From Verrucomicrobiota bacterium (lineage in GTDB: Bacteria > Verrucomicrobiota > Verrucomicrobiia > Opitutales > UBA953), in NCBI GenBank assembly GCA_030834165.1, contig JAURFU010000022.1, forward strand, positions 1-33,395: a DNA stretch of 33,395 nt. The letters are read 5' to 3'. Of the stretch, positions 187-12,705 are shown piece by piece. The first letter of the stretch is position 1, and each line of letters begins with the position of its first letter. A program made the position numbers and the translations under genes. The notes below the pieces were generated by a model that had not been told where the DNA came from, ran no database searches, and worked only from the letters and a program-made list of their open reading frames with translations.

Positions 187-732
187 ATGGCCATCAAAGT
201 CGTCGAACGCCGTCCGCTCACCCTCGCTGAGCGCACCTATCTCCCGCAGATCCTGGCGGGCCTCAAGGTCACCTGGGACAACATGGTCCGGCCCCCGGTC
301 ACCCTCCAGTATCCGGACGAACGTCCGGCCATACCGCAGAACTACCGCGGCGTGCCCACGCTCGTGATGGACCCCAACGGCCGCGAGAAGTGCGTGTCGT
401 GCCAGCTCTGCGAATTCGTCTGCCCGCCCAAGGCCATCCGCATCACGCCGGGCGAGATGTCCGAAGACTCCGCCAACGCCCACGTCGAGAAGGCGCCGAA
501 GGAATTCGAGATCAACATGCTCCGCTGCATCTACTGCGGCCTCTGCCAGGAAGTCTGCCCGGAGGAAGCCATCTGGCTGCAGAGCCAGTATTCGATGACC
601 GGCCTCTCGCGCGAAGCCATGGTCAACAACAAGGCGAAGCTCTACGAACTCGGCGGCACCCTTCCCGATAACCACCACAAGTGGGACAAGAAGAAGGAAG
701 AGGCCGAGCGTCAGGCCGGCGGCCATCACTGA
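187..732 (+). CDS. nuoI: NADH-quinone oxidoreductase subunit I (two 4Fe-4S clusters)
   Basis: A 181-residue ferredoxin-like subunit of complex I. It carries two classical cluster motifs: C69-x2-C72-x2-C75-x3-C79-P and C114-x2-C117-x2-C120-x3-C124-P, which bind the N6a and N6b clusters relaying electrons towards the quinone site. Length and the N-terminal amphipathic segment fit the family. The tail after residue 160 is charged and His-rich (ends GGHH), which is variable in NuoI. It starts 9 bp after nuoH and is evidently co-transcribed. No nuoJ follows; instead a hairpin with a T-run lies 31 bp downstream, so either the operon ends here or the remaining nuo genes are elsewhere. Confidence 0.96.
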   Translation: MAIKVVERRPLTLAERTYLPQILAGLKVTWDNMVRPPVTLQYPDERPAIPQNYRGVPTLVMDPNGREKCVSCQLCEFVCPPKAIRITPGEMSEDSANAHVEKAPKEFEINMLRCIYCGLCQEVCPEEAIWLQSQYSMTGLSREAMVNNKAKLYELGGTLPDNHHKWDKKKEEAERQAGGHH

Positions 733-736
733 GAGC

Positions 737-1099
737 AGGGCTAGGGCTAGGCAATATTGGTAGGGACAGCACCATGTGCTGTCCTTTTTTGTTTTTATAA
801 TCTCAAGGGGAGACCGGAAACCGGAGGATTGGCTGGGGTTTCAGGTAGGGACGTGATTGCCATCACGTCCGTGGGCGGACGGTCATCGGAACAATCGGTG
901 ATCTTGCCCGGTTCGATAAAGATACCGATGCGAACGGCGGTCATGGCAATGACCGCCCTACCCAAGGCAAAGCCGCAGCATCCTATCCGGTTTCCGGTCT
1001 CCCTTTGAGTGAAGCATGGGCACGATACAACTAGGGCAGCACGCGTTGCTGCCCCTACCTAAATCAACTAGCCCCAGCCCTAGCTCTGGCCCTATCCCT
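737..1099. repeat. Mirror-image intergenic mosaic between nuoI and the OYE gene
   Basis: No gene is credible here. From left to right: hexamer tract of AGGGCT type (737-752); hairpin (764-784); first 44 bp of the core repeat (802-845, plus orientation); hairpin GGACGTGAT/ATCACGTCC (849-870); weaker pairings (875-930); hairpin GGCGGTCAT/ATGACCGCC (936-957); the same core start in minus orientation (982-1009); hairpin GGGCAGCA/TGCTGCCC (1034-1054); hexamer tract in minus orientation (1067-1099). The two core ends are near-identical inverted repeats of about 26 bp. The layout is symmetrical about roughly position 910. The gap separates two convergent genes. Confidence 0.7.
764..790 (+). terminator. 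Hairpin with T-run after nuoI
   Basis: Perfect 9-bp stem GGACAGCAC / GTGCTGTCC with a CAT loop (764-784), followed directly by six T. It has the form of a rho-independent terminator for the nuo transcript. It is also one member of a hairpin family repeated through the window (see 1034, 2500, 6719, 12426), all flanked by TAG on the left and often CTA on the right, so the terminator may be a recruited repeat. Confidence 0.75.
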
Positions 1100-1119
1100 C
1101 CGCGGGCTTCAACCCGCGG
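1100..1119 (-). terminator. Hairpin across the stop codon of the OYE gene
   Basis: Perfect 7-bp inverted repeat CCGCGGG / CCCGCGG (1100-1106 and 1113-1119) whose loop contains the TGA stop of the minus-strand oxidoreductase (1109-1111). No T-run follows, so it may act in transcript-end protection rather than in termination. Confidence 0.35.
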
Positions 1120-2188
1120 TCGGATAATCCGTATACCCCTTGGGGCCGGAGGCGTAGAAGGTGGCTTCGTCCGGCGTATTGAACGCGAGGTTTTCCTGCA
1201 GGCGACGGGGCAGATCCGGATTGGCGAGGAACGGCACGCCGAAGGCGATCGCATCGGCCCAGCCTTCGGCGATGGCCTGCTCGGCCTGCGCGCGGTCGAA
1301 GCCACCGGCGGTGATGAGCACGCCCTTGAAGTCCTTGCGCAGTTCCTTCGGGCCGACGCCGTCCTTGGCCCCGTGCGCGATGTCCTGGGCGGTGACGCGG
1401 GTCACGTGCGCATAGGCGAGCTCGAGTTTGGAGAGTTCGCGCAGGACGTAGCCGAAGGTCTCGGTCGGATGGGCGTCGGCCATGTCATTGAACACGCCGC
1501 CGGGCGAAAGGCGGATACCCACGCGGTCCGAACCCCAGATGGAGACGACGGCCGCGGTGACCTCGAGGGTCAGGCGGGCGCGGGCGAAGACGGGGCCGCC
1601 GTAACCGTCTTCACGGGTGTTGGTGCCGCTGCGGAGGAACTGGTCGAGGAGGTAGCCGTTGGCGTTGTGGATCTCAACGCCGTCGAAGCCGGCTTCCTTG
1701 GCCAGACGCGCGCCACGGACGTATTCGCCGACGATGCCGGGGATCTCTTCGATGTGCAGGGCGCGGGGCGTGACGTAGTCCGCCATCTGCTTGCCCGTCC
1801 AGACCTGGCCCTTCGGCTTGATGGCCGACGGGGCGACGGGCAGCTCGCCGTTGGGCTGGAAATCCGGATGCGAGATGCGACCCACGTGCCAGAGCTGCAG
1901 GAAGATCCGGCCGCCTTTGGCGTGCACGGCGGACGAGACCTTCTTCCAGCCGGCGACCTGCTCGTCGGTGTAGATGCCCGGAGTGTTCGGATAGCCATGA
2001 CCACGGGGCGAGACGGTGGTCGCCTCGGCGATGATCAGGCCCGCGCCGGCGCGCTGGGCGTAATATTCGGCCATCAGGTCCGTCGGGACGTTGGCGCCCT
2101 CGGCGCGGCAACGGGTGAGCGGGGCCATCAGGACGCGGTTCGGCAGCGTGAGGGCGCCTACCTGAAGAGGAGCAAAGAGGGAGGACAT
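1109..2188 (-). CDS. NADH:flavin oxidoreductase / ene-reductase (Old Yellow Enzyme family)
   Basis: A 359-residue FMN-dependent TIM-barrel reductase of the NemA/PETN-reductase class, which reduces activated C=C bonds using NAD(P)H. Seen directly: N-terminal LFAPLQVGALTLPNRV with the PLTR motif; the substrate-anion pair in GVEIHNANGYLLDQF (H174, N177) with Y179 as the presumed proton donor at the right spacing; TNTREDGYGG phosphate/FMN region; GVFND; and a C-terminal FGVPFLANPDLP. Length matches the family (about 360). I chose the ATG at 2188 because homology begins there; the open frame runs further upstream into repeat sequence. The true substrate cannot be told. Single gene on the minus strand, convergent with nuoI; no clear Shine-Dalgarno. 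Confidence 0.93.
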   Translation of the reverse strand: MSSLFAPLQVGALTLPNRVLMAPLTRCRAEGANVPTDLMAEYYAQRAGAGLIIAEATTVSPRGHGYPNTPGIYTDEQVAGWKKVSSAVHAKGGRIFLQLWHVGRISHPDFQPNGELPVAPSAIKPKGQVWTGKQMADYVTPRALHIEEIPGIVGEYVRGARLAKEAGFDGVEIHNANGYLLDQFLRSGTNTREDGYGGPVFARARLTLEVTAAVVSIWGSDRVGIRLSPGGVFNDMADAHPTETFGYVLRELSKLELAYAHVTRVTAQDIAHGAKDGVGPKELRKDFKGVLITAGGFDRAQAEQAIAEGWADAIAFGVPFLANPDLPRRLQENLAFNTPDEATFYASGPKGYTDYPTAG

Positions 2189-2200
2189 GGGCGGAAGATA

Positions 2201-2240
2201 GAGGGCCGGAGGAAAAGAGGACAGGAGGAAAGGAGGCGGG
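2201..2240. repeat. Period-8 GAGG tract (copy 1)
   Basis: Five consecutive octamers each beginning GAGG, at 2201, 2209, 2217, 2225 and 2233, with variable remaining positions (consensus about GAGGRCNN). It lies 12 bp upstream of the OYE start, so the leader of that mRNA would be CCUC-rich. The same period-8 design recurs at 6671, 16262, 16392 (inverted) and 25846 (inverted). Confidence 0.75.
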
Positions 2241-2295
2241 GGTGGTGCCAGCGGTTGGCGGTTAGGAAGAGACAGAGGGAGGCAAGAGGGAGGGC

Positions 2296-2520
2296 TGAAT
2301 CGATGACAGAGGACAGATGACAGAATGCCCGGCACCTGCGCCTGAACCTGAAAACCCGTGCCAGGGACCTGGCGGCCGAGACCTGAGACCTGAAAGTGTT
2401 TCTGCCCCCAGCCAACCATCCGGTCTCCGGTTTCCCTTTGGGCTCATCTTGTCTGCTGCCCGCCACCTGCCACCCGCCACCTGGAAACGAATTCCGCCAG
2501 GGCAGCACGCGGTGCTGCCC
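2296..2520 (-). repeat. Core intergenic repeat with hairpin (copy B)
   Basis: Read on the minus strand: hairpin GGGCAGCAC/GTGCTGCCC with a 3-nt loop (2500-2520), a GGTGGC-rich linker, then the core repeat (2445 down to 2296) beginning CAAAGGGAAACCGGAGACCGG and ending TCATCGATTCAGCCC-like. It is homologous along its length, hairpin and linker included, to copy D at 12426-12661, and in the core to copy C at 6822-6960. The rest of the 2189-2645 gap holds the GAGG tract and, from 2521 to 2645, nothing I recognise. Confidence 0.7.
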
Positions 2521-2645
2521 CTGCCACGATGCAGCGATATCGAGCACGAGCCCTATCACGCCGTTCTCGCTCATTACCCCCATTAATCTTCCCTCCCACG
2601 CCGGACACCCCTATGTGTGCTGGGCACCTTTCAGCGTCGTCCGCC

Positions 2646-6664: not shown

Positions 6665-6670
6665 AGCGTG

Positions 6671-6706
6671 GAGGACTCGAGGGCCGGAGGGCCCGAGGAC
6701 AGGAGG
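6671..6706 (+). repeat. Period-8 GAGG tract (copy 2)
   Basis: Four full octamers starting GAGG at 6671, 6679, 6687 and 6695, plus a fifth GAGG at 6703, beginning 6 bp after the rnr stop. The GAGG strand is the coding strand here, as it is downstream of exbD (16431-16392) and nrdA (25877-25846). Confidence 0.75.
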
Positions 6707-6718
6707 TAAATAAGGCAG

Positions 6719-6744
6719 GGGCAGTACCGCGTGCTGCCCTTTTT
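6719..6744 (+). terminator. Hairpin with T-run after rnr
   Basis: Stem GGGCAGTAC / GTGCTGCCC (9 bp with one G-U pair), loop CGC, then five T (6740-6744). It looks like the rho-independent terminator of the pyrophosphatase-rnr operon and belongs to the same hairpin family as 764-784. Confidence 0.75.
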
Positions 6745-6752
6745 CATGGTAG

Positions 6753-6798
6753 GGCTGACCACCCTTGGTCAGCCGCGGTTGAGCGAGGGCGCTCAACC
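6753..6798. repeat. Tandem pair of perfect hairpins
   Basis: Two adjacent 9-bp perfect stems, GGCTGACCA/TGGTCAGCC (6753-6774, loop CCCT) and GGTTGAGCG/CGCTCAACC (6777-6798, loop AGGG), joined by GC. The pair is bracketed by TAG on the left and CTA on the right. The pair at 25763-25800 has the same GC joint. Confidence 0.75.
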
Positions 6799-6821
6799 CT
6801 ACCCAAGACAGAGAGGCATAA

Positions 6822-6960
6822 CTCAAAGGGAAACCGGAGACCAGATGGTTGGCCGGGGGCTGAAACACTTTCGGGTCCCAGGTCTCGGCCATCGGGTATC
6901 AGATCCGGGTTTTCAGGTACAGGTTCGGGTGTCTGGCATCTGTCATCTGTCATCGATTCA
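6822..6960 (+). repeat. Core intergenic repeat (copy C)
   Basis: About 139 bp starting CTCAAAGGGAAACCGGAGAC and ending TCATCTGTCATCGATTCA. It lines up with copies B and D over the whole length, with recognisable blocks GGTTGGC, GAAACACTTTC, CCCAGGTCTC, GCCATCGGGTATC and TTTTCAGGT. It fills the gap between the convergent genes rnr and the glycosyltransferase. Frames through it are not conserved between copies, so I do not regard it as coding. Confidence 0.7.
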
Positions 6961-6988
6961 GTCATCCATTCAGCGCTCAACTCAGTCC

Positions 6989-7702
6989 TCAATTCTTCCA
7001 AACCAGCCTCCCCCACGCCCGCGCATAATCTCCGGCGGCTTTGCCGAGGCGGATGCGGCCGGCGTCGTCGTCGGTCCACTTGACGGGGATCTCGACGAGC
7101 TTGGCGCCGGCGCGGGCGAGACGGACGAGCGCTTCCGCGCCGAAGGAAAAACCGCGCGCGTCGGCAGGCATCTGTAACTTCGCGAAGGTCGAGCGACGCA
7201 CCAGCTTGAGCCCGCAGCCGGGATCGGACAGGCGCGCGCCGGGCAGTATCCGCCAGAACAAGGAAAGCATCGCGGAGATGAGCGAACGCTTCCACGAACG
7301 GCCGATGACCTGCGACTCGCCATGCCATCGGGAGCCGGCGACGAGGTCGGCCTGGCCCTCGGAGATCAGCCGATAGCCGCGCACCAGCGCTTCGGGGTCG
7401 GTCGCCATGTCGGCGTCGCAATAGGCGAGCACGTCGTAGCCCTCCGGAGCGGACTCCCAGGCGGAGAAGATCGCCTCGCCCTTGTCCGCCCGGTCGGTCG
7501 CCCGATGGTAGACGACGCGGTAGGGATTCTGCGCTGCGGCCTCGATGGCCACCGCCCGCGTCCAATCCGTCGACCCGTTATCCGAGACCACGATCATCGC
7601 ATCCGAACAGTGGTGGGCCTGCAGGCTTTCGGCCAGCCGAGCCAAGCCGGGACCCAGCCGGCGCTCCTCATTGCGAACAGGAATGACGATTAAAAGGGGC
7701 AT
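6989..7702 (-). CDS. Family 2 glycosyltransferase (dolichyl-phosphate sugar transferase-like)
   Basis: A 237-residue soluble GT-A enzyme without membrane segments. Opens with LLIVIPVRNEERRL; SDNGSTDWT binds the nucleotide; RADKGEAI follows; CDADMATDPE carries the DxD metal/nucleotide motif; DPGCGLKLVRR and the acidic WTDDDAGRIR region lie in the C-terminal half. The pattern resembles ALG5/DPM1-type transferases, which move glucose or mannose from a nucleotide sugar to a polyprenyl phosphate at the membrane, but the sugar is not predictable. It stands alone on the minus strand, 140 bp from the divergent TonB-receptor gene, and converges with rnr. Start ATG at 7702 is supported by the motif at residues 3-12. 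Confidence 0.88.
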   Translation of the reverse strand: MPLLIVIPVRNEERRLGPGLARLAESLQAHHCSDAMIVVSDNGSTDWTRAVAIEAAAQNPYRVVYHRATDRADKGEAIFSAWESAPEGYDVLAYCDADMATDPEALVRGYRLISEGQADLVAGSRWHGESQVIGRSWKRSLISAMLSLFWRILPGARLSDPGCGLKLVRRSTFAKLQMPADARGFSFGAEALVRLARAGAKLVEIPVKWTDDDAGRIRLGKAAGDYARAWGRLVWKN

Positions 7703-12369: not shown

Positions 12370-12413
12370 GGGAGCGAGGGAGGGCTAGAGCTAGGGCCAG
12401 GGATAGGGCTGGG
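12368..12413 (+). repeat. GAGGGAGN octamer pair and AGGGCT hexamer tract
   Basis: Starting inside the stop codon of the coiled-coil gene, two GAGG octamers (12368, 12376) run into five consecutive hexamers of AGGGCT type (12381-12410). The inverted counterpart of the hexamer tract is at 12680-12705. Confidence 0.65.
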
Positions 12414-12425
12414 TAATAGTGGCAG

Positions 12426-12661
12426 GGGCAGCAACGAGCGCTGCCCTAGAAGATTTCGTTCTCGGGTGGCAGGTGGCGGCCGCAGGCAGCGGGTGGCGGG
12501 AGCAAACAAGATAAACTCAAAGGGAGACCGGAAACCGGCTGGTTAGCTGGGGCAGAAACACTTTCAGATCCCAGGTCTCAGCCATCGGGTATCTGATCCG
12601 GGGTTCCAGGTTCTGGTGCAGGTTCCGGACTTTCTGCCATCTGTCCTCTGTCATCGATTCA
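12426..12661 (+). repeat. Core intergenic repeat with hairpin (copy D)
   Basis: Hairpin GGGCAGC/GCTGCCC (12426-12446), GGTGGC-rich linker (about 12465-12500), then the 146-bp core (12516-12661), starting CTCAAAGGGAGACCGG and ending TCATCGATTCA. Same order of parts as copy B on the other strand at 2520-2296. It separates the convergent genes for the coiled-coil protein and dxs. Confidence 0.7.
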
Positions 12662-12679
12662 GCCCTCTGATCTAAAACC

Positions 12680-12705
12680 AGCCCTAACCCAAGCCCTAGC
12701 CCTAA
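12680..12705 (-). repeat. Inverted AGGGCT hexamer tract
   Basis: On the minus strand, consecutive hexamers AGGGCT, AGGGCT, TGGGTT, AGGGCT, immediately after the dxs stop. Together with 12381-12410 it brackets core copy D with inverted tracts, as 737-752 and 1067-1099 bracket the nuoI/OYE mosaic. Confidence 0.6.

Follow-up and report, generated by a model that had tools for sequence, protein, structure and literature searches.

How does the spacer between two convergent genes come to carry its repeats in mirror order? The question is raised by the 376-nt spacer between nuoI and a reductase gene in the window, i.e. the whole stretch of 33,395 nt that was analysed, which belongs to a genome of 2.25 Mb that is 81% complete (referred to below as the own genome). 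The first-pass annotation had read this spacer as a mirror-image element, either mobile with composite ends or a built-up bidirectional terminator, and its parts are indeed present in that order at the positions it gave. The core arms turned out to be longer, i.e. 37 nt each, with 96% complementarity over the outer 24 nt and differing inner ends, and the minus-strand hexamers lie at about 1069-1099. From left to right the parts read HEX+ REP+ CORE+ REP+ REP- CORE- REP- HEX- (Table 1). Our analyses make it probable that the spacer is not one element but consists of separate palindromic insertion units nested in one another. From the outside to the inside, the nest is composed of a hexamer-armed palindrome, the outer REP hairpins, the core palindrome, and a REPIN in the core loop.

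Table 1. Features of the nuoI/reductase spacer and its flanking genes; positions refer to the window
Feature	Position	Strand	Basis or remark
nuoI, left flanking gene, convergent	187..732	+	NCBIfam NuoI; ORF
AGGGCT hexamer tract, left arm	737..751	+	hexamer forms 17 plus-then-minus pairs in own genome
Left outer REP hairpin, GTAG-tagged, GGACAGCAC stem type	759..784	+	type flanks RAYTs in five sister genomes
T-tract after left outer REP stem; intrinsic-terminator-like for nuoI	785..796	+	
Core palindrome arm A, inner end GGCTGGGG	802..838	+	
Inner REPIN, left REP (GGACGTG-ATTGCCAT-CACGTCC)	844..870	+	
Inner REPIN spacer	871..935	.	
Inner REPIN, right REP; central ATTGCCAT again, other stem	936..962	-	
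Core palindrome arm B, inner end GCTGCGG	973..1009	-	
Right outer REP hairpin, GTAG-tagged, GGGCAGCAC stem type	1034..1059	-	type flanks RAYT at G000:C59, own genome
Hexamer tract, right arm	about 1069..1099	-	
NADH:flavin oxidoreductase family gene, right flank, convergent	1109..2188	-	Pfam PF00724; gene caller

The mirror layout is not due to chance, because the predicted RNA fold of the spacer was better than that of all 100 shuffled sequences on either strand (-207.4 kcal/mol and z -11.8 for the plus strand, -195.2 kcal/mol and z -9.95 for the minus strand). The GTAG tags of all four hairpins point outward, each beside a short palindrome with a 9-bp stem, as is typical of GTAG REPs. The two inner hairpins have the central ATTGCCAT in common, and their stems are unlike. 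Three further spacers of the window (2199-2530, 6669-6992, and 12380-12704) are likewise mosaics, composed of octamer GAGGACT tracts, REP hairpins, core arms, CAGGTCTC tracts, and hexamers.

GTAG REPs, REPINs, and RAYTs are established (excerpts of PMC3116915 and PMC2817692), and GTAG repeats have been reported in O. terrae, a verrucomicrobium (excerpt of PMC3733652). For the outer-type hairpins, 34 pattern matches were found in the own genome, versus none in a reversed control, and such hairpins are present in 43 of 95 genomes, counting the own genome, with all 43 belonging to a single genus. When every type of GTAG hairpin is counted, 334 own-genome spacers contain 48. The own genome has three matches to the RAYT model NF047646, each with GTAG hairpins nearby; the one scanned by itself, a 144-aa protein, scored 79.8 bits against this model of the REP-associated tyrosine transposase, the cut-off being 80. 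RAYTs framed by an inverted pair of one REP type were found for both outer types. In the own genome, inverted GGGCAGCAC REPs, which are of the right outer type (1034-1059), lie on both sides of the C59 RAYT; this type borders a RAYT in genome G016 as well. Inverted GGACAGCAC REPs, the left outer type (764-784), border RAYTs in G016, G011, G036, G070, and G009, and none of the three RAYTs detected in the own genome, 81% complete as it is. The stems of the inner REPIN are absent from every RAYT locus listed, and a cognate RAYT was not found in this incomplete own genome. The RAYT-bearing stretch of contig C43 contains an inverted pair GGGGTCAGAC / GTCAGACCCC (L061:2839-2880).

The 119-bp inverted REP pair in the core loop has one other near full-length copy (G000:C80, 83% identity) and four partial matches, and both of its ends were found in the orthologous spacers L200 and L188, so that it is a recurring unit. 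Of 133 outer-type REP copies, 18 have a hexamer tract next to their tagged side and two have one next to the opposite side. In the 55 genomes of the genus, the numbers of RAYTs and hairpins correlate with rho 0.715, those of cores and hairpins with rho 0.643, and those of cores and RAYTs with rho 0.545; genome incompleteness may add to all three values. Eleven of these genomes, many of which are incomplete, have hairpins without a RAYT match, four show the reverse, and ten have the core without a RAYT match.

The core palindrome is a repeat family in its own right. Its arms were found 69 times in the own genome with at most one mismatch, compared with zero for a reversed control, and the palindrome occurs in 40 of the 55 genus genomes (own included) and in none of 40 genomes outside the genus. 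A 37-base core pattern matched 104 stretches of the genome_contigs collection; of the 80 that were listed, all but seven have titles naming Opitutae, Opitutia, Opitutales, Opitutus, or Verrucomicrobia. The seven (L097, L107, L109, L143, L144, L151, and L164) stem from a record titled Polynucleobacter meluiroseus, which is perhaps a mislabelled or mixed MAG. An Rfam match to ylbH was below threshold (22.6 bits, gathering value 50) and was taken as chance.

We analysed 79 non-redundant core pairs, 86 before near-orthologous ones were dropped. In 50 of them the loop was short, the palindrome measuring about 80 bp in all, and in 29 it was longer. Both inner arm ends were intact in 22 of the 29 long-loop copies and one in the other seven, while a random stretch passes this test on one side in 0.9% of cases; therefore, the extra DNA mostly sits in the loop. 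The insert varies between copies, being either a pair of REP hairpins or a different palindromic module.

With regard to known classes, the core palindrome is similar to MITEs (named in PMC3733652, excerpt) in its size range and its ends, since the arms of 36-37 nt form terminal inverted repeats. It differs from them in that target duplications of at least 5 bp, for which the first-pass annotation had proposed to look, were found at none of the 79 pairs (null mean 1.4), and in that neither a parent autonomous transposon nor a transposase for the core was found in the sequence examined. The core as the end of a longer transposon was rejected, as adjacent arms 500-3500 bp apart were in F..R orientation three times versus 19 times R..F, and no longer element with core ends was found. 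The arms carry no GTAG, as those of REPINs would. No core arm was found within 260 bp of the RAYTs at the listed loci, nor in 15 loci with long RAYT-like genes, and the core as a RAYT or TIRYT end was dismissed for lack of association at the loci examined.

TIRtrons are RAYT-like genes with terminal inverted repeats containing GGGGWSAS (PMC3733652, excerpt of section 16). The genus has a counterpart in that the long RAYT-like ORFs are flanked by GGGGTCAG-type inverted repeats at several of the 15 loci, whereas the core palindrome flanks none of the 15. The inverted repeats around long RAYT-like ORFs in sister genomes (L301, L303, L305-L308, L312, and L313) contain GGGGTCAGGCCG, which fits the TIRtron motif as given in that excerpt.

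The surroundings of the core were also compared. In ten of the 79 pairs, the flank types to the left and right of the core matched above the 95% mark, with about four expected; the mean match was 9.9 versus 8.7 (p 0.014), and in direct orientation the number of matches was 0 of 79. REPs within 130 nt on both sides were found for three of the 79, and the REP nearest to the core was outward-facing in 21 cases and inward-facing in 15.

The hexamer tract is likewise one arm of a palindrome. Hexamer doublets were found 124 times in the own genome with at most one mismatch (control: 31), and among the 100 of these 124 matches that were listed, 17 of 18 pairs of neighbouring arrays not more than 450 bp apart were plus-then-minus and one was minus-then-plus. 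The loops of hexamer palindromes were seen by eye to hold REP pairs in L336, L331, and L323, and palindromes with GTGCAAA arms to enclose hexamer palindromes in L324-L326 and L329. The AGGGCT arrays (L322-L336) have GGG every 6 nt, with the G-rich arm first in those 17 of 18 neighbouring pairs, and from their sequence they could form G-quadruplexes besides hairpins. We searched twelve tract families and found plus-then-minus order in 24 of 28 pairs in the own DNA and in all three in G016; nine of the twelve families gave at least one such pair.

If units are inserted whole, pairs of different families can only be nested or disjoint, while recruitment of single arms should also give crossing orders. 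To count these orders, we used nine families plus GGTAGGG as the sole REP marker and counted sequence-alike clusters once. In 417 kb of own DNA, 11 pairs were nested, none crossing, and one disjoint, the nested count being small. The corresponding numbers were 1, 0, and 2 in 400 kb of G016, and 20, 0, and 20 in L092-L195, which had been selected for holding a core arm. Summed over the three sets, 32 overlapping pairs of different families were nested and none crossed. Without REP pairs, 17 were nested, none crossing, and three disjoint in all sets. Before removal of redundancy, the numbers were 11/0/1, 2/0/3, and 39/0/38, with a sum of 52 nested, 0 crossing, and 42 disjoint over sets that partly overlap. 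Among neighbours of the same family (REP omitted, redundancy removed), 92 of 104 were plus-then-minus and one was minus-then-plus; without the core, the values were 48 of 56 and one, and before redundancy removal 140 of 156 were plus-then-minus. Taken together, 32 nested pairs with no crossing and the 92 of 104 fit the insertion of whole units, and not the accumulation of single arms. The chance reading that the first-pass annotation had reserved for pieces without preferred order does not apply, as the same counts demonstrate a preferred order.

One reading of the layers is that they are the ends of one composite non-autonomous transposon that moves as a whole. Their mirror symmetry is in line with this, as is the joint presence of the core and the inner REPIN in L188, or of the core and a variant REPIN in L199/L116. 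However, the parts are multi-copy and the whole is not: a second complete copy was not found in the own genome, the best other match covering 127 of 371 bases at 83%, and the eight-part mirror was found once among 39 clusters of at least four parts. Individual layers are also found on their own or combined differently, outer and inner layers separate between species, and the core lacks a target duplication. A single composite transposon was therefore rejected on account of the independence of its layers, and we regard it as extremely improbable. Of the mobile reading in the first-pass annotation, it holds true that some ends have a mobile character, being REPs with RAYT genes, but not that the spacer is a single element with composite ends.

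The separation of the layers was evident from orthologous spacers. Ten sister loci have the nuoI/reductase pair in convergent orientation, and the pair was examined in L188 and L273 as well. In L203 and L204, the outer REPs recur and the inside is exchanged. In L188, the core and the 119-bp REPIN recur and the outer layers differ. L199/L116 have the core with a variant REPIN. In L200, the REPIN and arm B are present, and a different tract occupies the place of arm A. L197, L202, and L208 instead have a short spacer with mirror-ordered GTTGGCC tracts, and in L273 (genome G060) the spacer encloses a whole REP-flanked RAYT gene. As layers are shared or exchanged between sister species, turnover at this site proceeds block by block. 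Ten further sister loci have a reductase gene that is co-directional with nuoI, and their spacers have neither a core arm nor GGTAGGG. The search for empty sites that the first-pass annotation had suggested yielded no clean one among the orthologous loci matches listed. The nuoI spacer of L209 (genome G010) has a near-repeat of a block consisting of a REP pair, a core arm, and a REP.

A second reading is that the layout was selected as a large RNA hairpin, as a bidirectional terminator or a stabiliser of mRNA 3′ ends, with pairing parts recruited arm by arm. The very stable predicted fold on both strands is what it would lead one to expect, and the nuoI side resembles a terminator. A terminator scan found a GC-rich hairpin followed by a T-run there, as in intrinsic terminators, and the T-tract behind the nuoI-side REP is present in all nine distinct orthologous spacers that have this REP (two of them, L201 and L209, assigned by eye), versus 7 of 135 copies elsewhere. 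Because of this difference, the left outer REP has probably been kept as the predicted terminator of nuoI. GTAG hairpins are also denser between convergent genes. In the own genome, 22 were found in 7.2 kb of convergent spacers, 18 in 15.4 kb of tandem, and 8 in 10.4 kb of divergent ones, and in G016 the values were 13 in 5.2 kb, 18 in 22.4 kb, and 0 in 9.9 kb, the gene context being taken from a purpose-written codon-usage gene caller.

The other half of the terminator reading did not hold. On the reductase side, the scan gave no minus-strand site within the spacer, and one beyond it at 720-703, inside nuoI, so the spacer has a T-run terminator on the plus strand only, and its minus strand is without a T-run. 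Mirror order is also not confined to convergent spacers. In a test of whole spacers, which gave modest signals, the p values in the own genome were 0.009 for convergent, 0.042 for tandem, and 0.020 for divergent spacers; in G016 they were 0.007, 0.051, and 0.167, so that mirror order outside convergent spacers is less apparent there. Within a hexamer palindrome, the partner arms resemble each other no more than arms taken from other copies do (p 0.59, n=17), and recruitment arm by arm should lead to crossing, which none of the 32 overlapping pairs shows. We thus consider selection of the layout as an RNA hairpin unlikely.

A third possibility is that inverted copies were made in place by hairpin-templated copying (template switching), so that an arm would make its own mirror arm. 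This could account for a mirror pairing that is general at the level of tract types. On the other hand, the partner arms would then be expected to resemble each other more than unrelated arms of the family, which the hexamer comparison contradicts. With no sign of concerted evolution or of copying between hexamer arms, neither arm-to-arm copying nor fine co-variation is claimed here. The arms of the core are even systematically unlike: the inner-end combinations of the 79 pairs were W/X in 45, W/W in 19, W/other in 15, and X/X in none. Template switching is accordingly hard to credit as the origin of the layout.

For the favoured nest of separate insertion units, we propose the following course. 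Each palindromic unit would have arrived whole, with both arms together, and the REPINs would have been moved by RAYTs. RAYTs are HUH transposases that act on single strands. The loops of resident units may have been favoured landing sites, perhaps exposed by a folded single strand, and the left outer REP would afterwards have been retained as the terminator of nuoI.

Comparison with published systems shows that the spacer is ordinary in its REP parts and unusual in its organisation. Like the GTAG REP/REPIN/RAYT systems described in the excerpts of PMC2817692, PMC3116915, and PMC3733652, it has a GTAG tag with a short palindrome, inverted doublets, and, in the genus, RAYTs between two inverted REPs; in contrast to them, several REP types are layered in and around unrelated palindromes within one spacer. 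REP elements or dimers within a longer palindrome are also known from A. variabilis, T. roseum, and H. neapolitanus (section 7 of PMC3733652), with one kind of host palindrome per species, whereas multiple families, multiple layers, and also non-REP modules are involved here. Short tandem tracts in plus-then-minus order that are capable of forming stem-loops have been described for the GGGAATC heptamers of Xanthomonas, with 70 and 75 convergent tract pairs in two species (excerpt of PMC4692102). These heptamers are a single tract family, whereas nine of the twelve families are paired here and are nested with one another and with REPINs. The first-pass annotation knew of no described family with this composition. 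As the REP parts belong to a known class and REPs within palindromes have been published, this applies to the many-layered version only. Each principle, i.e. REPs inside palindromes and mirror-paired tandem tracts, has a precedent in these excerpts, and the nesting of many families in many layers is new relative to them. No title on nested palindromes in Opitutae was present among the literature matches listed, in a search whose scope mostly did not extend to subscription journals.

A more general rule is conceivable, which we put forward tentatively and with more doubt than confidence. The intergenic DNA of the genus may obey a balanced-bracket rule: about a dozen palindrome families, including those with arms of degenerate 6-9-nt tandem tracts, would be copied whole by a shared activity that targets hairpin loops in single strands, RAYT-like or other. 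The loops of older units would be the landing sites of newer ones, so that a spacer would record the order of insertions like tree rings.

The nuoI spacer represents a case of a mobile-type repeat that has seemingly been kept as a gene terminator. More generally, the results touch two open questions, i.e. what governs target choice by REPINs and other small palindromes of bacteria, and how new palindrome families originate. The targeting of loops is directly testable in a genus such as this one. With its many nested families, the genus would give relative insertion times for each spacer, which would be comparable across dozens of species.
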